Assembly (NCBI GenBank): GCA_947626195.1
Contig: CANQRF010000003.1
Coordinates: 1 to 64,000 of the forward strand
Length of the DNA: 64,000 nt
Reading direction: 5' to 3'
Source: an uncultured Eggerthellaceae bacterium
GTDB lineage: Bacteria > Actinomycetota > Coriobacteriia > Coriobacteriales > Eggerthellaceae
Positions within the stretch are counted from its first letter, which is position 1; every line of letters starts with the position of its first letter. Both the position numbers and the translations under genes were made by a program. The notes below the pieces were generated by a model, which had not been told where the DNA came from, did no database searches, and saw only the letters and a list, made by a program, of their open reading frames with translations. This document shows positions 10,594 to 20,728 of this stretch, one piece after another.

Positions 10594-11424
10594 CTACTTC
10601 TTACGACGACGGATAATGAGTCTGCTCGACGCCTTCTTGGCATTGCGCGTGCGATGTCCCTTGGTGGGAACGCCCCACGGCGTCACCGGATGACGGCCGG
10701 CCGACTTGTTCTTGCCTTCGCCGCCGCCATGCGGATGGTCGACCGGATTCATCGCCGTGCCGCGGACGGAGGGGCGAATGCCCTTCCAGCGGTTGCGGCC
10801 GGCCTTGCCGATCTTGATGTTGGAGTGCTCCGCATTGCCCACTTCGCCGACGGTGGCGCGGCAGGTGAGCAGCACGCGGCGCATCTCCGAGGAGGGCATG
10901 CGGAGGATGGCGTAGTTGCCTTCCTTGCCCATGAGCTGGATCGACGTTCCGGCAGAGCGTGCCATGGCAGCACCTTTGCCCGGCTGGAGCTCGACGGCAT
11001 GCACGAGCGTGCCGACGGGGATGTTCGCGAGCGGAAGCGCATTGCCCGGCTTGATGTCGACGTCCGCGCCGCTCTCGACGATGTCGCCGACGCGCAGGCC
11101 CTTCGGATGGATGATGTAGCGCTTCTCGCCATCAACATAGTGGAGAAGGGCGATGCGGGCGCTGCGGTTCGGATCGTATTCGATCGTTGCGACCTTCGCG
11201 GGCACGCCGTCCTTGTTGCGTTTGAAATCGATGATGCGGTAGCGCTGCTTGTTGCCGCCGCCCTGATGACGCGTCGTGATGCGGCCATTGTTGTTGCGGC
11301 CGGCCTTCTTCGGCTTCGGCGCAAGCAACGACTTCTCCGGCGTCGAGCGCGTGATCTCCTCGAAATCGGAGACCATCTGGAAGCGCCTACCGGGAGACGT
11401 TGGCTTGTATTGTTTGACTCCCAT
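10594..11424 (-). CDS. rplB: 50S ribosomal protein L2
   Basis: L2 is needed for subunit association and peptidyl-transferase centre assembly. The ATG at 11424 ([14 protein letters not shown]) follows GGAGGACAGGTAACA and gives 276 residues, the usual length. The conserved [13 protein letters not shown] loop is present near residue 220. Unusually, the gene before it on the minus strand is not rplW but a peptidoglycan hydrolase; rplW lies 9 kb away, and L2 seems to have its own promoter. Confidence 0.97.
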
Positions 11425-11562
11425 TGTTACCTGTCCTCCATTGAACATTACCTGTCTTGGCTCGATGAACGATTGCCGAGGCGATCGAGGAGGTTCGCAT
11501 CGCTTCGACGCCGTTCATCCACGCGCTCGGGCGTGTCCATACACCCGAAGACGCAAGTGAAC

Positions 11563-11592
11563 AGTTTAACCGAAGGAACAAGGCAATTTCAA
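11563..11592 (-). promoter_or_regulatory. Probable promoter for the rplB-adk segment
   Basis: Read on the minus strand, TTGAAA (11592-11587) and TAAACT (11568-11563) are separated by 18 bases. The -35 hexamer begins four bases after the stop codon of the NlpC/P60 gene. It would restart transcription of the second half of the ribosomal cluster, with a leader of about 130 bases before rplB. The leader contains a short imperfect hairpin around 11528-11548. Confidence 0.55.
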
Positions 11593-11595
11593 GAT

Positions 11596-13458
11596 TTATT
11601 TTGCGAGAAGAAACAACTCGTCCGGCATGAGAGGCGTGCTGCCTGCGAAGAGCGGCTCGTCTGCGATATTGTTGTCTTCGCTCAGCGTCACATGGATGAG
11701 CTTCGAGCCTTCGTCATCCAATGAGAGCCCATCGGGCAACGAGAGCTTTCCCTGACCCTGGGCGGCGGAGGCATCGGTCGGCTTGGTCGGCAGCACGCGC
11801 TTCGCGAAATCGGGCATCTTGTCTTCAAGGGCCGTCACGCGCACGACGTCACCCGAATGCGGCGCCTCGATATAGAACCCATCGGCGAGATACATGCCAA
11901 CATGGCCGACAACGCCATCGGCCTCGAAGAACAGCAGATCGCCCATCTGGAGATCGGCGAAATCGACGTCCTCGCCGAGCGTGCACTGGTAATAGGTCGT
12001 CCGCGGGATCTTCACGTTCAGCGCCTTGTCGAAGGAATACTGCACGAGGCCCGAGCAATCGAAGCCCTCCGGCGTCGTTCCTCCCCAAACATAGGGAACG
12101 CCCAGATGGGAGGTCGCCTCGGCGACAAGATCGGTCAGCGTGCGCTCCTCCATGATCGGCTGCCCCGTTTCGTCAAGCAGGGCATCGCCGGTTGCGGGAT
12201 CGACCGCCTCCACCATGATCGGATCGGCGAGCTCATAGGAGATCGGCTCATCGAAACGCGTGAGGTCGTAGGTCTCGATAAGGTCTTGCAGCTTCTCGGA
12301 ATAGGAGGTGTCGGTGGCGTAGCGACCCTCCAGATAGTTGCACGCCATCACAAACGTTTCGGCATTTTCCTTCCAGACGGGGGCATAGAACCCGTCAAGG
12401 CCGTTTTTCAGAAGATCGGCGTAGTCCTCGAGCGATTGCCTCATGCTTGGATAGGCGCGGAAATCAGCGCGGATATAGTAGTTGTTGCCCGTGCCGTCGT
12501 CCTCGCCCGTGATGAAGTTGATGCTCTGCCCGCGATACGAACCCTTGATGCCGAAGAGGTTGTTCCCCTCGCGGGCAAGCGCGGAATTGCCTGAGCCGGA
12601 TTCGAGGATGGCCTGCGCGACCATCACCGAGGCGTACAGGCCCTCATCTTGCCCGATCTCACGAGCTTGCTCGCCGATGACCGCGATGAACTCCTCGGTT
12701 TCAAGGTCTTCGGAGTAATGCTTGGGGGTATAGGAGGTGTCTCCCGCATACGACCATGCGGGATATGCCTCGGCGTCGTTTGCCTCCGGTGCGCTTGGCG
12801 CAGGTTCCTGAAGGCTCGGAGCAACGGCATCCTCGGCCGACGGATTGCCCGTCTCGGGAGCCGACGCGCCATCTGCCTGCGGCGCTTGCGTGCCGCTCGG
12901 CTCGCCCTCGTTCTCGGTGGCTGGCGCCTGAGGGGCAGAATCGGCATGCTCGTTTTCCGAACCTTGAGGGTCGGAGGTATTCGGATCAGCCGGCGCGATC
13001 CCATCGGGGTCGGCGGCGGCATCGTTGTCGGACGGGGACGCGGCGATGAGGCCATTCGCGTCGGGCGGTGCGCTCAGGAGCACCTCGATGCCTTTGGCAA
13101 TCGCCGGATCGATCTTCGCGAGAGCCTCCAAATCGACCGCGGCGAGCTCTTCATACTTCACCTTCTCGCCGAGAAGGTAGCGAATCACGATGTCGCTTCC
13201 CTCGAAGTCTGCGGCGTCGATGGCATCGAGGAGATCGTGGCCAAAGGTCGGCTCGGGCTGCGGTTCGGCGGTGATGGGGGCTTCGGTGGCACTTGCCACG
13301 GAAACCGAGGTGATCCCCACGCAGGGCGTGACGGCAAGCGCGAGGGCAAGCAAGGTGCAGGCGGGGCGCCTGAGCGGGCTTTTCCACGCACGGGAATCTC
13401 CCCAAGACAACGCTTGGATATCCTTCTCTTTCGTCGAAATGTCCGGTTGCTTCCTCAT
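11596..13458 (-). CDS. Secreted peptidoglycan hydrolase: glucosaminidase domain plus NlpC/P60 endopeptidase
   Basis: The protein has about 620 residues. A basic start and a hydrophobic segment (LLALALAVTPCVGITSVSVA) form a Sec signal. An acidic Ala/Pro-rich linker follows, then a glucosaminidase-type domain (VMVAQAILESGSGNSALAREGNNLFGIKG) and an NlpC/P60 domain with the catalytic cysteine in GFDCSGLVQY and histidines in GHVGMY and APHSG. It should cleave cell-wall glycan and stem peptide. The ATG at 13458 with AGGTGA upstream is chosen over a TTG at 13542 that has no ribosome-binding site. It sits inside the split ribosomal cluster and appears to have its own promoter. Confidence 0.9.
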   Translation of the reverse strand: MRKQPDISTKEKDIQALSWGDSRAWKSPLRRPACTLLALALAVTPCVGITSVSVASATEAPITAEPQPEPTFGHDLLDAIDAADFEGSDIVIRYLLGEKVKYEELAAVDLEALAKIDPAIAKGIEVLLSAPPDANGLIAASPSDNDAAADPDGIAPADPNTSDPQGSENEHADSAPQAPATENEGEPSGTQAPQADGASAPETGNPSAEDAVAPSLQEPAPSAPEANDAEAYPAWSYAGDTSYTPKHYSEDLETEEFIAVIGEQAREIGQDEGLYASVMVAQAILESGSGNSALAREGNNLFGIKGSYRGQSINFITGEDDGTGNNYYIRADFRAYPSMRQSLEDYADLLKNGLDGFYAPVWKENAETFVMACNYLEGRYATDTSYSEKLQDLIETYDLTRFDEPISYELADPIMVEAVDPATGDALLDETGQPIMEERTLTDLVAEATSHLGVPYVWGGTTPEGFDCSGLVQYSFDKALNVKIPRTTYYQCTLGEDVDFADLQMGDLLFFEADGVVGHVGMYLADGFYIEAPHSGDVVRVTALEDKMPDFAKRVLPTKPTDASAAQGQGKLSLPDGLSLDDEGSKLIHVTLSEDNNIADEPLFAGSTPLMPDELFLLAK

Positions 13459-13553: not shown

Positions 13554-13581
13554 ATTCTAGACGGTTTCTCGGGCTTGTCCA
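13554..13581 (-). promoter_or_regulatory. Probable promoter of the NlpC/P60 gene
   Basis: On the minus strand TGGACA (13581-13576) and TAGAAT (13559-13554) lie 16 bases apart, each one mismatch from the sigma-70 consensus. The transcript would have a leader of about 90 bases before the ATG at 13458. No terminator was seen between this site and the upstream trigger-factor-like gene. Confidence 0.55.
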
Positions 13582-13711: not shown

Positions 13712-14752
13712 TTAGGAAGCGGACTTTCTCGTCGAGGTCTTTTTGGCCGGTTTCTTCTCAGGCTTCCCGTCGCCGGGCGCCGAAGGCGCAAGGTCGAGCA
13801 GCTTCAGATTCGCATGGTCGAGCGCCCATTGGTTCGCCTTGATGCGCTCGGCGGTCTCACGCATCGCAAAGCCGCGGCCGGTCTGCTCGAAGTACATGCG
13901 GGACATCTTCGGATCGACGCCAGGGTTCATCTCGGCGCAAGCGCGTTCGATGTCCGCGTCGGTCAGGCTGAGCTTCTCATGGCGATAGATCGCATCGAGC
14001 GCATAGCTCTGCGAGAGCATCTGGCGCGCTTGGAGCATCACCATCGCGTTGAACTGCTGCTGCCCGCCGTTGTTGCGCACGATGTCGTCGAAGCGCACGC
14101 CGGCGCGCTGGGCGTCGAGGCGCATGTTGCCGACGATCGCCTCCTGCATCGCGTTGTTGACCTCTTCGGGAATCTTCCCCTCGAAGCGCAGGCCGAGCTG
14201 GGTCTGCACCATCGTGAGAAGCTCGCGTTGATAGGCGGCGTTCGCCTGTGCGAAAAGCGCCTCGCGGATGCTCTTGCGCACATCCTCGGTGTCCTTGAAT
14301 TCCTTGTCGTGCTCCTTCATCGCCTCGATCTGGCGGTCAACGACGCTCTCATCGAACATGAAGGGGGGCACCGAGAGTGAGACGGGATCGTAGGAACTGA
14401 GCTCGAAAGGCTGCTTGAGCGCCACCTCGATCGTGAAGCTAAAGGGCCTTCCCCGCTTCAGCTCTTCGGAATAGACCGGCTTTGGCAGGTAGGCGGGGGT
14501 GATGTTCGCCTTGTCGATGGCGAGCGGCACGAGCGCATCGACGGCGCTGCGTGCGACGAGCGGATCGAGGTCTTTGATTCCCATCTGCTCAAACGCGACC
14601 TGGGAAACGCTCTTGCTCGAATCGGGTTTCAGCCCCATGTTCTGGGCAAACGTCACCTTGGCGCCTTCAAGCGCCCGCCCTACTTCCTGGGCCGTCGCCA
14701 GCACGCTCAGGCGCACGGCATACGTTCCGGTCTTTTTCGAGGTTACCTTCAT
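13712..14752 (-). CDS. Trigger-factor-like protein lacking the PPIase domain
   Basis: The ATG at 14752 has AAAGGAG eight bases upstream and gives 346 residues. The N-terminal third resembles the trigger factor ribosome-docking domain (MKVTSKKTGTYAVRLSVLAT, then QVAFEQMG), and the rest resembles the helical C-terminal chaperone arms (FDESVVDRQIEAMKEHDKEF through LSLTDADIERACAEMNPG). There is no room for the FKBP-type PPIase domain of a normal factor of about 430 residues. Where trigger factors carry the GFRxGKxP ribosome-contact signature this protein has NMGLKPDSSKS, so docking at L23 is doubtful. The C terminus is Lys/Ser-rich. It may be a paralogue with another client set. Confidence 0.7.
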   Translation of the reverse strand: MKVTSKKTGTYAVRLSVLATAQEVGRALEGAKVTFAQNMGLKPDSSKSVSQVAFEQMGIKDLDPLVARSAVDALVPLAIDKANITPAYLPKPVYSEELKRGRPFSFTIEVALKQPFELSSYDPVSLSVPPFMFDESVVDRQIEAMKEHDKEFKDTEDVRKSIREALFAQANAAYQRELLTMVQTQLGLRFEGKIPEEVNNAMQEAIVGNMRLDAQRAGVRFDDIVRNNGGQQQFNAMVMLQARQMLSQSYALDAIYRHEKLSLTDADIERACAEMNPGVDPKMSRMYFEQTGRGFAMRETAERIKANQWALDHANLKLLDLAPSAPGDGKPEKKPAKKTSTRKSAS

Positions 14753-14839: not shown

Positions 14840-17800
14840 CTATTCGTTCGATTTCAGGCTCTCCACCATATCGACATGCGAGAGCTTCGTCAGCATCGCC
14901 GCCATCACGAGCAGCGAGAACAACATCGTGAGCGCAAACGCCGCGATAAACGAGCTGAGATGGATGTCGCGGCCGAACATCACGTAGTCGACCTCAGCCG
15001 TGGAGACCACCGAGGTCTCGAGGAGCACGCCGAGGAAGAGCCCCAGCACGGCTCCGATGATCACCAGAAGGAGGATCTCGCGGAAGATGTAGAGCGCCAC
15101 TTCCCGTTTCGTGAAGCCAAGCACCTTGAGCGTCGCGATCTCGCGGATGCGCTCGGTGATGTTGATGTTCGTGAGATTGTAGAGCACGATGAACGCGAGA
15201 AGCGCTGCCGCCGCGACAAGCACGATGACCACGAGGTTCACGCTCGAGAGCAGCGTGCGATAGGTGTCGATGGTCTCGTCGGTGTAGGCGACCGTCTGCA
15301 CGCCGTCGATCTCCCGCGCAGCCGTTGCGAACTCATCGCGAAGCGCTTTGTCCTCGGCGATCGTCGCATAGATCGAGGTCTCCTCGGGGGTTTCTCCGAA
15401 GGTCTGCTCATAGAGCTTCGGCGAGATGAAGACATAGTTCGCCACGTAGTTCTCCATGAGGGCATCGACGGTGAACTCATACACCTCGCCGGTCACGTTG
15501 CCGCGCGCGTCGGGGACGGAGAGCCTCAGGGTGTCGCCCGGGTACACGTCGAGCGTATAGCTCATCTTCTCGGTGATGATGATACCGTCATCGGACAGGT
15601 GCAGGTCGTTTCCCGTTTTGCGATCGCGCATCTTCCAGAGCGCTTGAAACACCGCTTCGTCGGAGGGCACCATGAGCGTAATGGAAAGCTCCTGATCGTC
15701 GGAGCCGAGCGCCACCATCGATGAGGCGTGCGCGGTGGTGTGCATGGTGAGATAGCGCTCATCATCGATAAGGTCGCTGAGTTCCCGCTTGTCGCTTTCG
15801 CTGATGTCGTCTTCGGTGTTGATGACGACGTTATAGCGCACGAGCTCGCCGTATTGCTTGTTGATGATGTCGTCGAGCGAATTCTGCAGCCCGAGGCCCG
15901 TGAGCAACAGGGCGGTGCAGCCGGCGATGCCGATCACGGTCATGATGAAGCGCTTCTTGTAGCGGAAGAGGTTGCGCGCGCAGACCTTCCAGAGAAACGA
16001 CATGCGGCGCCACAGCGGCCTGATGTGCTCGAGGAGGATGCGCCGCCCCGCTTTCGGCGCGCGGGGAAGCATCAACGCGGCGGGCACGGTGCGCAAGGTC
16101 GCGGCGACCGCCGCCCACGTGGCGAAGAGCGTCACGCCGACGCCGAGGCCCGCGGCGAGCAGGGCGAGCGGCCAGTCGATGGGAAGCGCGCCGTGCGGCA
16201 CGTGGTAGATGATGCTATAGGCGTACATGATGACCCAGGGGAGCACCTGGGAGAGGATCGCGATGCCGACGACGCTCCCCACACCTGAGGCGAGAAGCGC
16301 GTAGAGCAGGTATTTCGAGGCGATGCGCCCCTGCGAATAGCCGAGCGCCTTATAGGTGCCGATCAGCGTGCGCTCATCCTCCACCATGCGCGTCATCGTC
16401 GTGAGCGCGACAAGGGCGGCGACGAGGAAGAAGATGAAGGGAAAGACGCGGGCGATATTGTCGATGCGCTCCGCATCCGAAGAGAACATGACGACGCCGT
16501 TGTTCTTCGTGCGATCCATGACGAGCCATTCGGGCTCTTCGAGCTCATCGATCTGCGCCTGCACCTCCGCGATGTCGGCCTCCGCATCGGCGAATTGCTC
16601 GGATGCCTCGCGGGAGGCGCTTTCGTAATCGGCAAGACCGTCGTCATAGTCCGTCCGCGCCTGCTCGAGGCGAGACCGTGCATCCGCGAGCTGGGCCGCC
16701 GAGCTCGCGAGCGTGCGCTGCGCCGCGGCGAACTGGCGGGAAGCTTCGTCCCGTTGGGCGGCGAGCTGGTTGCGCGCCTGCTCGATTTGGGCCACGGCCT
16801 CCGGATAGGCCGCATCGAAGGCGGCCTTGTTCTCATCATAGGTCTGCTGCGAGGAAACGAGCTGCTCGATATCCGCTGCCTGCGCCTCAAGCTGGGCGAG
16901 CTGCTGTCTCGCGGCTTCCACCTGGGCGAGGAGCTCGGGGTTCTCGGGATCGGACGCGAGGGCCCCTTCGAGCTGATCGAGGGCTGAGGCGGCCTGATCG
17001 ATTCCCGCGCGCACCTGCTCAAGCGCTGCGGGCGCCTCCTCGGGGGTGAGGCCCGCCTGCTGCCATGAGGCGGCAAGCTGCGACGCCGCCTGCTCAAGCG
17101 AGGTTTGCTGCTGGTCGAGCTCGCGTTCGCTCGCGGCGATCTGGGCCTCGGCCTGGGCGAATTGCCCATCGGCCTGCGCACGCTGCGCGCGCAGCTCGGC
17201 GATGCCCGCGTCGTAGGCGCGCTGCCCGTCGGCAAGCGACTGCTCGCTCTCCGTGATTGTGGCGAGAGCCTCGTCAAGCTGCCCCTTCGCATCGGCGAGC
17301 TCGGCTTCCGCGTCGGCGCGCTCGGCATGGTAATCGCTTTGCGCGTCATCGACCTCGGATTGCGCCTCCCCCTTCACCTCGCTGAAGCGTATCTCCTCCC
17401 GAGAGGGCGCGATGGCACTGATGGCCTCCATCACCTCGGCGATCCGGTCGTCATAGGCTTCGCTCGCCGAGTTGAGCTCCTTCGCACCCCCAACGAGCAA
17501 GAATGCCTCGGTATAGGGAAGGTCGGAGGAAAACGCCTCGGGCATCACATACATATACTGGGTGATCGTGCCCGTGCCGAGCGAGGTCGTGCCCATGCTC
17601 GAGGAGGCCACGTAATAGGGCGAGTGCGCGAAGCCGACGATGGTGTATTCGGTCACCTCGAGCACATCGTCGAGCGCCGACGTCGCCTCGCTCACCAAGA
17701 TGGCGTCCCCCACCTCCACGTCGGTGTTCATCACGCGGTCGGCCGAGATGACGCATTCCCTCGCGCTCTCCGGCCATCTCCCGCGATCAAGGACGAGGCG

Positions 17801-18202
17801 ATTGAGGTAGTCTCCGTCATCCGACATGACGACGATGCCGTCGGAGGAGGCCGTCGAGGCGCTTGCCGCCTCGGGAAGCGAATGCATGCGCACCGCGTAT
17901 TGCTCGCCGTCGATGATCGCAAGCACGTCGGATTCATAGGCCCCCATGACCTCAGAAACGCCCTCGACCTCGGAAAGCGCCTCGAGATCGCCGTCGGTGA
18001 GTCCCATCGTCGAGATGACACGGATGTCCATCATGTTCGTGCCGTCGTAATAGGCATCGGCGGCGGCATCCATGTCGGGAGAGGTCATGCGAAGCCCCGC
18101 ATAGAAACCGCAGCCAAGTGCGACGATCGCCATGATCGCGAGAAACCTCCCGATCGAGTGCGTGATCGATCGGCGGAAGTCTTTTGCGAACGCGCTCGCC
18201 AC
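14840..18202 (-). CDS. Large FtsX-type ABC transporter permease with long coiled coil
   Basis: About 1,120 residues. A GTG at 18202 with AAGGGG seven bases upstream is preferred to a TTG at 18208. One N-terminal membrane span is followed by an extracytoplasmic region of several hundred residues, including a long Gln/Ala/Glu-rich coiled coil (roughly residues 270-550). Next come an FtsX block (MVEDERTLIGTYKALGYSQGRIASKYLLYA), a second extracytoplasmic part, and a C-terminal FtsX block (ITERIREIATLKVLGFTKREVALYI). This is the layout of MacB-like permeases that drive extracytoplasmic work, not import. The matching ATPase lies just upstream. Confidence 0.9.
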   Translation of the reverse strand: MASAFAKDFRRSITHSIGRFLAIMAIVALGCGFYAGLRMTSPDMDAAADAYYDGTNMMDIRVISTMGLTDGDLEALSEVEGVSEVMGAYESDVLAIIDGEQYAVRMHSLPEAASASTASSDGIVVMSDDGDYLNRLVLDRGRWPESARECVISADRVMNTDVEVGDAILVSEATSALDDVLEVTEYTIVGFAHSPYYVASSSMGTTSLGTGTITQYMYVMPEAFSSDLPYTEAFLLVGGAKELNSASEAYDDRIAEVMEAISAIAPSREEIRFSEVKGEAQSEVDDAQSDYHAERADAEAELADAKGQLDEALATITESEQSLADGQRAYDAGIAELRAQRAQADGQFAQAEAQIAASERELDQQQTSLEQAASQLAASWQQAGLTPEEAPAALEQVRAGIDQAASALDQLEGALASDPENPELLAQVEAARQQLAQLEAQAADIEQLVSSQQTYDENKAAFDAAYPEAVAQIEQARNQLAAQRDEASRQFAAAQRTLASSAAQLADARSRLEQARTDYDDGLADYESASREASEQFADAEADIAEVQAQIDELEEPEWLVMDRTKNNGVVMFSSDAERIDNIARVFPFIFFLVAALVALTTMTRMVEDERTLIGTYKALGYSQGRIASKYLLYALLASGVGSVVGIAILSQVLPWVIMYAYSIIYHVPHGALPIDWPLALLAAGLGVGVTLFATWAAVAATLRTVPAALMLPRAPKAGRRILLEHIRPLWRRMSFLWKVCARNLFRYKKRFIMTVIGIAGCTALLLTGLGLQNSLDDIINKQYGELVRYNVVINTEDDISESDKRELSDLIDDERYLTMHTTAHASSMVALGSDDQELSITLMVPSDEAVFQALWKMRDRKTGNDLHLSDDGIIITEKMSYTLDVYPGDTLRLSVPDARGNVTGEVYEFTVDALMENYVANYVFISPKLYEQTFGETPEETSIYATIAEDKALRDEFATAAREIDGVQTVAYTDETIDTYRTLLSSVNLVVIVLVAAAALLAFIVLYNLTNINITERIREIATLKVLGFTKREVALYIFREILLLVIIGAVLGLFLGVLLETSVVSTAEVDYVMFGRDIHLSSFIAAFALTMLFSLLVMAAMLTKLSHVDMVESLKSNE

Positions 18203-18220
18203 GGTCAAGCCCCTTGCGCG

Positions 18221-18922
18221 CTACCACTCTAAGACGCTGGCGGGCGCGGGATGCTCGTTGAGAACGATGTCGGCGACCTTGCCCTCGCGGATCGTGATCA
18301 CGCGATCGGCGATCGCCGTGAAGGCGAGATTGTGGGTGACAAGAACGACGGTCTTGCCCGTCTGGCGGCAGGTCTGCTGCAGGAGCTCGAGGATGCTCTT
18401 GCCTGTTTGGTAGTCAAGCGCACCCGTCGGCTCATCGCAGAGCAGGAGCTTCGGGTTCTTCGCCAACGCACGGGCGATGGCGACGCGCTGCTGCTCGCCG
18501 CCGGAAAGCTGGCTCGGAAAATTCGCCGCACGGTCGGCCAGGCCCACCTGCGCGAGCATCTCATCGGCAGGAAGCGGATCCTTGCATATCTGGGAAGCGA
18601 GCTCGACGTTCTCCAAGGCCGTGAGGTTGGGCACGAGGTTGTAGAACTGGAAGACGAAGCCCACATCGAAACGGCGGTACATCGTCAATTCGCGCTGGGT
18701 CGCCGCGCTGATATTGTTGCCGTCGAGCACGATGGTTCCCGACGTGCAGACGTCCATGCCGCCGAGCATGTTGAGAAGCGTCGTCTTGCCGGCGCCCGAT
18801 GGGCCGACGACCACGGCGAGCTCGCCCTGCTCGACGGTAAACGTCATCCCGTCGGCAGCGGCGACTTCCACCTCGCCCATTTGATAGATTTTCCTCACAT
18901 CGCGAAACTCGACAAACGACAT
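18221..18922 (-). CDS. ABC transporter ATP-binding protein, MacB/LolD type
   Basis: The ATG at 18922 ([16 protein letters not shown]) follows GAGGCG and gives 233 residues. Walker [13 protein letters not shown], signature [15 protein letters not shown], Walker [13 protein letters not shown] and the H-loop VTHN are intact. The [11 protein letters not shown] form and the adjacent permease place it with MacB/LolD/FtsE ATPases. It lies between the MFS gene and the permease with small gaps and is probably co-transcribed with both. Confidence 0.93.
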
Positions 18923-18938
18923 AGGCGCCTCGGAAGGA

Positions 18939-20414
18939 TCAGCTGTGCGGATTGAAGCGATTCGGATCGCCCGTCGCCTGCGCATGCGCCTTATGCTTGC
19001 GCATCTTCCATGAATAGGCAAACGCCAAGATGAGCGCCGCGACGGCGATGACGATCGAGATGATGAGCGCATGGGAGAACCCGACGCCATAGGCGGAGGC
19101 ACGGCTCATGCCCTGAGCGGTCTCACGCAGCACATCGGCGGAAAGCACGCCGACAAACAGCGATGCGCCGATCGAGTTCGCTATCTGGACGAAGATCGAG
19201 TTGATCGCGGCGCCATACGAGTACAGATCCTTTGAAAGGAGGTTCAGGGCCATCGTCTTCGAGGGCGCCACAATGAAGCTGTTCCCCACATAGATGCCGA
19301 ACGAGAACGCGAGCACCGCATAGGGAAGCACGTGCTGAGCCGTGAAGAAGATCCCGAAGAACCCGATGACGGCGAGCAGATAGCCGAACGGCACGACGGG
19401 AAAGATCCCCTTCTTATCGAATATCTTGCCGCCGACCACCGCGAGCAAGCCATAGGCAACAAGCGGGATGGAGATGAGGATGCCGGCCTCAAACGGGGTG
19501 TCTCCCGTCGTCCCCTCGTAGAAGAGCGGCAGGAGCAGGCTCATGGCCGCTGTGCCCATCATGCCGAACATCACGAGCACGACGCCGATCGTGAAGCCGC
19601 TGTGGCGAAGCGGGGAAAGGTTGAGCAGCGGGGCCTTGATCTTCAGCTGCCGCACGACGAAGACCGCCAAAACGACCGCTCCGATGACGAGCCCCACCAC
19701 TGCGGGGAGCGTATCGTGCGTGAGCTCGCCGAGGCCGTACATCAGGGCGGCGAGGCCGACGAAGGCCAGCGCCACGCTCAAAAGGTCGATCGGCGTACGG
19801 CTGCGATCCTCCACATTGTAGAGCACGAAAACGCCCGCCGCGAAAAGCGCTATGCCGAGAACGAGCGTCGGAATGAACATGATATGCAGATCGAAATAGG
19901 TGAGCAGAAGGCCCGAGATCAAAGGACCTACCGCCTGGCCGATGCCGATGATGCCGCTGTTGAGGGCGAGCACCGCCCCGCGGCGGTCGGTGCCGACGAG
20001 GATGGCGATGACGCCGGTCACCACCGGAAAGAGCATGCCCGTCGCTATTGCCTGCACCAAGCGGGCGGCGACAAGCACCGGAAAGCTGAACGACAGAACG
20101 CCGATGAGGCTTCCCACGGCAAGGCAGCCCGCGGAGAAGGCAAAGAGCTTGCGCAGCCCCATCCGGCTCATGAGGGCGGCGGCCATCGTGATGGAAGTGG
20201 CCGCCACGATGGTAAAGCCGATGACCACCCAGTTCGCAATCGAGAGCGTGACGCCGAACTTATCGGCGATATGCGGCAGCGCGATGTTCATCATCGATTG
20301 CGAATAGGACGCAGAAAACGTACTGGCCATCAAAATGGCCAGTACGAGCGTTACATTCTTTGGACTTTTCTGCGAAGCCCGTTCATTCGATGTTGTTTTC
20401 TTGGCAAAACACAT
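18939..20414 (-). CDS. MFS transporter, 14-span DHA2-type exporter
   Basis: About 491 residues with around 14 hydrophobic spans. The pattern of span 1 and loop (FSASYSQSMMNIALPHIADKFGVTLSIANWVVIGFTI) and the motif LMSRMGLRKLFAFSAG match drug:H+ antiporter family 2. The substrate is unknown. An ATG at 20414 has GAGG nine bases upstream; a GTG at 20420 is the alternative. It begins 30 bases after rplW and so may be co-transcribed from the ribosomal promoter, followed by the ABC genes. Confidence 0.88.
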   Translation of the reverse strand: MCFAKKTTSNERASQKSPKNVTLVLAILMASTFSASYSQSMMNIALPHIADKFGVTLSIANWVVIGFTIVAATSITMAAALMSRMGLRKLFAFSAGCLAVGSLIGVLSFSFPVLVAARLVQAIATGMLFPVVTGVIAILVGTDRRGAVLALNSGIIGIGQAVGPLISGLLLTYFDLHIMFIPTLVLGIALFAAGVFVLYNVEDRSRTPIDLLSVALAFVGLAALMYGLGELTHDTLPAVVGLVIGAVVLAVFVVRQLKIKAPLLNLSPLRHSGFTIGVVLVMFGMMGTAAMSLLLPLFYEGTTGDTPFEAGILISIPLVAYGLLAVVGGKIFDKKGIFPVVPFGYLLAVIGFFGIFFTAQHVLPYAVLAFSFGIYVGNSFIVAPSKTMALNLLSKDLYSYGAAINSIFVQIANSIGASLFVGVLSADVLRETAQGMSRASAYGVGFSHALIISIVIAVAALILAFAYSWKMRKHKAHAQATGDPNRFNPHS

Positions 20415-20443
20415 CTTCACTCGCCTCGAAAACCGTAAGCGCC

Positions 20444-20728
20444 TTAGGACGCGAACAATTCGATGGTGTCGCCTTCCCTCAACGTGACCATAGCCTTTTT
20501 CCAGGTGCGGGTGTAGCCCTTCTGATAGCGAACACGCTTGGGCTTCGCCTTCACATTAAGGGTGTTCACCTTTACCACTTGAACGCCGAAGATGTCGGAA
20601 ACCGCCTGAGCGATCTCCACCTTGTTCGCCGTTTTCGCCACTTCGAAGGTGTAGGTGTTCTTCTCCATCATATCGAAGCTGTGCTCGGTGATGATCGGGC
20701 GCAAAATGATCTCACGAGGATCCTTCAT
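20444..20728 (-). CDS. rplW: 50S ribosomal protein L23
   Basis: The 94-residue protein at the tunnel exit is the docking site of trigger factor. It begins KDPREIILRPIITEHSF and has the L23 core NTYTFEVAKTANKVEIAQAVSDIFGVQVVKVNT. Its start overlaps the end of rplD (TAATG). In most bacteria rplB follows; here an MFS exporter does. Confidence 0.96.
   Translation of the reverse strand: MKDPREIILRPIITEHSFDMMEKNTYTFEVAKTANKVEIAQAVSDIFGVQVVKVNTLNVKAKPKRVRYQKGYTRTWKKAMVTLREGDTIELFAS

Follow-up and report, generated by a model that had tools for sequence, protein, structure and literature searches.

A trigger-factor paralogue without PPIase domain and canonical docking motif in the split S10 operon of Eggerthellaceae

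Trigger factor (TF) is encoded by a single gene in nearly all bacteria, and extra copies are mostly short of the N-domain, according to the consulted part of PMC11559001. The same part states that extra TFs tend to lose the docking motif, a loss that its authors link to a dosage limit. Extra homologues in Myxococcus xanthus and elsewhere sit beside one docking TF; those of M. xanthus keep the PPIase and the C-domain (same part of PMC11559001). The strings Actinobacteri, Coriobacteri and Eggerthell do not occur in the main text of that paper. Plastids contain a truncated TF paralogue, Tig2, which the consulted part of PMC11731035 links to large-subunit biogenesis and not to nascent-chain folding. 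It consists of the N-domain alone, with the GFR motif kept (same part).

The protein described here is likewise a second TF beside one docking TF, and it too has lost the motif. In contrast to the M. xanthus copies, it keeps the N-domain fold, with the docking loop rewritten, and has lost the PPIase; unlike Tig2, it has the chaperone domain but not the motif. Compared with canonical TF, it has no FKBP (PPIase) domain and no GFRxGKxP motif, its loop is near-neutral, its arm helix is rich in methionine, and its gene is not beside clpP. These parts are already known. Searches of the open-licence PMC literature did not turn up this combination, a TF copy placed family-wide in the S10 operon, or a PPIase loss that goes both ways. 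Among the papers listed there, no title or abstract start dealt with a TF paralogue in Eggerthellaceae or with an S10 operon that is split, which is weak evidence of absence.

The window is a stretch of 64,000 nucleotides from an uncultured Eggerthellaceae bacterium. Two names are coined in this analysis: TF1 for the docking tig copy and TF2 for the paralogue subfamily. The following genes of the window are arranged on one strand, with the insert order MFS transporter, ABC ATPase, permease, TF2 and hydrolase.

20444 to 20728, minus strand: rplW, encoding ribosomal protein L23 with the docking Glu retained; it bounds the split upstream
18939 to 20420, minus strand: MFS transporter of DHA2 type, with which the insert begins
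18221 to 18925, minus strand: LolD/MacB-type ABC ATPase
14840 to 18208, minus strand: giant FtsX/LolC-like permease of 1122 residues, upstream neighbour of TF2
13712 to 14752, minus strand: TF2, PPIase-less TF paralogue of 346 residues (translation; Pfam Trigger_N and Trigger_C; AlphaFold2 pLDDT 94.6)
11596 to 13458, minus strand: wall hydrolase with glucosaminidase-like and NlpC/P60 parts, start codon uncertain
10594 to 11427, minus strand: rplB (L2), downstream edge of the split

TF2 itself can be divided into the following parts.

14318 to 14752, minus strand: TF N-terminal domain, residues 1-145 (Pfam PF05697, 36.9 bits)
14609 to 14641, minus strand: rewritten docking loop NMGLKPDSSKS in place of GFRxGKxP, residues 38-48 (alignment with 29 docking TF1s)
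14290 to 14300, minus strand: junction near residue 152/153, where most relatives have an FKBP domain of about 100 residues (alignment)
13820 to 14287, minus strand: TF C-terminal (chaperone arm) domain, residues 156-311, including the Met-rich helix (Pfam PF05698; composition)
13715 to 13780, minus strand: basic tail (..EKKPAKKTSTRKSAS) that the model leaves poorly ordered (sequence, charge, pLDDT)

The TF2 reading frame begins with an ATG at 14752, preceded by AAAGGAG 8 nt upstream, and its stop ends at 13712. Trigger_N passes its Pfam cut-off of 22.2, so the N-domain is neither lost nor replaced as it is in extra TF homologues, and Trigger_C reaches 40.3 bits against a cut-off of 22.7. FKBP_C gives no Pfam match at E up to 1, and the domain is missing in the alignment too. 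The sequence-only reading, which had called this protein a PPIase-less TF paralogue without the canonical docking motif, is borne out by these results.

On the NCBIfam model TIGR00115 for full-length tig, the window protein scores 68.1 bits, below the cut-off of 180.2 and thus outside the equivalog, while TF1 of the same genome scores 259.5. The gene of this TF1 (G000:C2) encodes the whole protein, including GFRPGKAP, and precedes a clpP-like gene. Because a normal tig-clpP locus is present elsewhere in the genome, the window gene is a paralogue; the full-length copy that the earlier reading proposed to look for exists, and TF2 is not the sole tig.

TF2 is not a chance reading frame and is under purifying selection. 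Simple counts of the Nei-Gojobori type over 346 codons, against the sole congeneric genome, give dN 0.159, dS 0.851 and a ratio of 0.187 (TF1 0.128, rplB 0.017). Codon bias gives no sign of high TF2 expression, and it is uninformative about expression level, as background genes score like ribosomal proteins. An origin in a mobile element was rejected: there was no plasmid match (tblastn, E 1e-5) and none in viral contigs (patterns of P0001 only). Rfam found nothing in the window at gathering score. TF1 and TF2 of the window genome have an EKKPAKK-STRK tail in common; an exchange between them was rejected on account of many synonymous DNA differences, and the tail is treated as low-complexity similarity.

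The window TF2 was modelled with AlphaFold2 from an alignment of 47 rows. The mean pLDDT is 94.6 and the pTM 0.86, and only the last 25 residues or so are poor. The top Foldseek match is E. coli TF (1w26, E 9e-9), and the next ranks include T. maritima TF (3gty, E 1e-7), plastid TIG1 and MPN555; the two bacterial TFs, which share the N- and C-domain fold with TF2, are thus the top solved matches. VIA-align gives Z scores of 12.2 for 1w26, 12.1 for T. maritima TF, 8.3 for Mycoplasma MPN555 (1zxj) and 5.6 for SurA (1m5y). The comparison with TF and SurA suggested in the earlier reading therefore comes out in favour of a TF-like fold. MPN555 and SurA resemble the arm part (model residues 115-326) but leave the TF N-domain uncovered. 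The whole-chain rmsd is large, at 12.6 A, which we put down to differing domain orientation in the model; N-domain and C-domain matches alone (1oms, 2nsa) have an rmsd near 4 A.

A family profile searched against the PDB leads to the same fold, as all 14 sequences at E < 0.01 are TFs, TF fragments or fusions, or plastid TF. A full-length relative (L123), modelled with a pLDDT of 89.3 and a pTM of 0.71, has extra strands at residues from about 150 to 250. No parvulin domain was matched in TF2 by Pfam (E up to 1), and no export signal was evident by eye.

The docking loop separates the two kinds of TF. GxRxG is found in none of 41 TF2s and in 29 of 29 TF1s, the latter by construction since TF1s were recognised by a stricter motif. 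The mean net charge of the loop is +5.2 in TF1 (n=29) and +0.4 in TF2 (n=41). The GxR part is kept in 20 of the 41, and a G..P..GK pattern is still present in most TF2 loops; residual or altered docking is therefore possible from sequence. The loop is conserved inside the subfamily, and the arm motifs are conserved across Eggerthellaceae. On the ribosomal side, a Glu of L23, which we take from E. coli work to be the TF docking residue and which was located in the alignment by eye, is retained in 44 of 44 rplW-bearing loci, some genomes being counted twice.

A second trait of the subfamily lies in the arm. Methionine makes up 13.0% of the arm helix in TF2 against 1.4% in docking TFs; every TF1 has 0-1 Met there (n=29), and 39 of 41 TF2s have at least three. 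Few stretches of TF2 are as conserved as this helix, GGEQQFxMMxMxQxRxMLVQGYALDA.

Net charge distinguishes the window genus. TF2 carries +2 in the window and +1 in the congener, whereas other TF2s range from -16 to -50, except for L048 (+4), whose reading frame runs into an odd tail. That frame, in Enteroscipio rubneri (L101/L048, G027), is 528 residues long and its tail is unrelated. TF1 charges range from -14 to -51, and those of the window genus are very acidic (-51, -47). The lost FKBP segment is acidic, -12 on average, and accounts for part of the TF2 shift; the remainder comes from the tail and the N-domain.

Absence of the docking motif is a trait of the TF2 subfamily as a whole, as judged from the aligned sequences, and absence of the FKBP domain is a trait of the window genus and a second lineage. 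When 22 TF2s were aligned, the docking motif was present in none and the middle domain in 20. Among the 41 TF2s, 38 keep the FKBP domain and three lack it: the window protein, that of its congener, and L135 of another lineage. L135 retains a linker that is missing from the window protein, so these losses look separate. Where the domain is kept, it has diverged in both TF1 and TF2, because most scanned copies score below the cut-off: FKBP_C is above its own cut-off in only two of seven full-length TF2s scanned, and the TF1 of the window genome reaches only 13.4 bits, under the cut-off.

According to known work, TF can lose the PPIase and still perform its main chaperone function. On a tree of 87 TF-like proteins, 14 have no FKBP domain. 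Besides the three TF2s there are four docking TF1s with GFR[KP]GKAP intact: L170 (G085), L171 (G017) and L173 (G058), all of genus g17, and L180 (G133). The further seven are more divergent paralogues. TF2 of genus g17 keeps the domain, as observed in L073 for G017; in G058 and G085 its presence is inferred from the spacing of two match pieces. In both Eggerthellaceae genera in which loss of the FKBP domain from one main TF copy was observed, the other main copy retains it.

The position of TF2 was compared across 149 genomes, the window's included, with 89 from Eggerthellaceae and 60 from nine other families. In the window, 5.7 kb separate TF2 from rplW upstream and 2.3 kb separate it from rplB downstream. 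In the other families rplW and rplB are adjacent in 54 of 54 scorable genomes, 8-237 bp apart; the remaining six of the 60 are short of one gene. In Eggerthellaceae they are adjacent in none of the 46 genomes with both genes on one contig. In a further 34 they lie on separate contigs, consistent with a split but also with contig ends, and nine have at least one gene unplaced. The split is no assembly effect, because single-contig genomes show it (G004, G041, G065, G069, G074 and others). Where the usual gene order is kept, the gap ranges from 1.75 kb to 160 kb. At 160 kb (G040), 151 kb (G073) and 114 kb (G041), there are in effect two distant operons.

TF2 stands between rplW and rplB, on the same strand, in 33 of the 46. 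Among the other 13, ten have no TF2 among the matches listed, in two TF2 follows rplW at about 5 kb and rplB is located elsewhere, and in one TF2 stands just ahead of rplB and rplW is located elsewhere. Two genomes (G042, G075) show a plain rplW-TF2-rplB order, with no permease or hydrolase relatives and no other same-strand reading frame of at least 150 residues. The sequence-only reading had the L23 gene reached only across an inserted block. This is true of the window, but in several relatives TF2 is the gene immediately after rplW.

Members of Eggerthellaceae with no TF2 among the matches listed are split too, so the split is independent of TF2 and may predate it. TF2 may have made the break, as a candidate only; a break that came first also fits.

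A protein search with TF2 finds matches in 148 of the 149 genomes, many of them TF1. TF2 itself is present in at least 67 of 89 Eggerthellaceae genomes, and 22 have none, in both cases among the matches listed. Named relatives occur in Adlercreutzia, Gordonibacter, Eggerthella sinensis, Paraeggerthella, Slackia, Raoultibacter, Senegalimassilia and others, and it is by these that the family of 89 genomes is assigned to Eggerthellaceae. Among the places listed, most TF2 matches are broken into two by a stretch of about 100 residues, owing to the middle domain that the relatives have retained, and single-piece matches at high identity are limited to the window genome and its congener (78% identity). 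One divergent single-piece match has 30% identity (G083:C127). A single-sequence scan of a genome contig collection found no TF2 relative; an alignment-based scan did find relatives. The tig model gives four full-length TF2s scores of 141-190 bits, which exceed the cut-off in one case, so the model will name some TF2s trigger factor and not others. Annotation may thus hide TF2.

Two trees were built. The TF tree, from the 87 proteins with FKBP columns excluded, is a quick search without bootstrap in which 24 of 83 inner branches are open. TF1 forms one side of a branch with an SH-aLRT of 99, and the TF2 clade has 98, with L116 and L120 as sister to the remainder. On this tree the docking motif requires one change and the FKBP domain seven. 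The second tree, also a quick search (19 of 61 inner branches open), uses five ribosomal proteins of 64 genomes; within the family, 36 have TF2 and 17 do not. Eggerthellaceae form one side of a branch (support 98), and the first split inside the family sets apart eight genomes, all with TF2 (support 88). TF2 presence needs four changes inside Eggerthellaceae.

From the trees and the universal split, the simple story is that TF2 probably sat in the gap of the Eggerthellaceae ancestor and was later lost several times, while the operon was never rejoined. Three genomes of family f6 (G093, G102, G119) have TF2 elsewhere, with the rplW-rplB junction intact. The TF2s of G093 and G102 nest inside the TF2 clade, which suggests a transfer between f6 and Eggerthellaceae. 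In G102 a tandem pair of TF2 genes was observed (L051/L104).

The other genes of the insert are close to TF2. The intergenic gaps from rplW to TF2 are 23, 13, 12 and 87 bp, the ATPase and permease directly precede TF2 in many relatives, and the permease and TF2 matches are about 50 nt apart in L094, L096, L098, L106 and L109. Permease relatives occur in 104 of 149 genomes (E 1e-100), including other families and genomes without a listed TF2, and for this reason the association is not strict. TF2 as a permease-specific partner is rejected as a general rule, since TF2 stands without the pair in G042, G075 and G028, and permease relatives occur in genomes with no listed TF2. The proposal that TF2 is a chaperone for its neighbours is not supported by these observations.

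A single transcript across the whole insert is not assured, because promoter-like sites precede the NlpC gene (13554-13581, minus strand) and rplB (11563-11592, minus strand). Their number in the region, 5, barely exceeds the 3.1 expected by chance, and terminator-like sites number 11 against 13.5 expected. One 12-pair stem followed by TTTT lies within the first part of the MFS gene, some 100 bp beyond rplW (20319-20346, minus strand); it is a possible attenuator of the insert, or a chance product of coding sequence.

These findings can be explained if TF2 is a TF-type holdase that does not dock and is synthesised in parallel with ribosomal proteins, a reading to which we give a probability of about 55%. 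TF2 has exchanged the positively charged L23-docking loop for a near-neutral, conserved loop, and its arm helix is rich in methionine, unlike that of docking TFs. Together these features suggest that canonical L23 docking is absent and that TF2 acts as a holdase that is untethered and needs no ATP. A cradle would be formed by the N-domain and both arms, with clients held on the arm surfaces and released passively. The location of TF2 in the S10 gap, read in the same direction as the flanking genes, makes coordinated synthesis with ribosomal proteins probable. Preferred clients might then be newly made ribosomal proteins or assembly intermediates, which is a guess. In the window genus the PPIase was lost and the protein became near-neutral, with a basic tail; prolyl isomerisation would fall to TF1. 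A bolder version is doubtful: TF2 would be an assembly chaperone for ribosomal proteins, whose insertion behind the L23 gene split the S10 operon once at the family root, never to be closed, and TF1 and TF2 would share out the ancestral domains, with the PPIase lost from either.

Other explanations fit parts of the evidence. TF2 could serve exported or membrane proteins, such as the giant permease or the secreted wall hydrolase, and its Met-rich helix would then bind hydrophobic segments. The transporters and the hydrolase of the insert fit this role as well, as does the ATPase-permease pair so often found just before TF2. But TF2 stands without that pair in three genomes, the permease has relatives in other families and where no TF2 is listed, and inspection by eye shows no export signal in the protein; we consider this role unlikely. 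Alternatively, TF2 could still use its altered loop to dock at the tunnel exit, or pair with TF1 as a heterodimer and so modulate it. The N-domain fold is kept, the loop is conserved within TF2, the gene lies behind that for L23, and in the window genus an acidic TF1 and a near-neutral TF2 could favour pairing. The absence of GxRxG from all 41 TF2s and the lost loop charge speak against docking, and the charge contrast is peculiar to this genus, as other TF2s are acidic, which leaves this explanation quite improbable. The absence of TF2 from part of the family and the domain loss in the window genus might also indicate a relic, a decaying duplicate retained only through its location. This is very unlikely given the low dN/dS, the loop and arm motifs conserved family-wide, and a split that persists without TF2, so that nothing holds the gene in place.

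The family-wide break is at a junction that is intact in sister families, a position hard to call random, and it offers a testable link between a chaperone and the making of ribosomes. Loss of docking by loop rewriting, together with PPIase loss from either copy, amounts to a set of natural domain-swap experiments on docking and prolyl isomerisation.

TF-like proteins are also found beyond these two copies. At least two Trigger_C matches were found in 80 of 89 Eggerthellaceae genomes. Five genomes (G073, G036, G041, G062, G075) have 7-9 each, an expansion in which some matches may be one gene spread over several contigs. At another locus (L141:9902-10951, plus strand), a divergent FKBP-less TF-like protein is encoded directly 5' of an EF-G-like gene (11102-13171), about 0.9 kb after an IF3-like gene that was read by eye.
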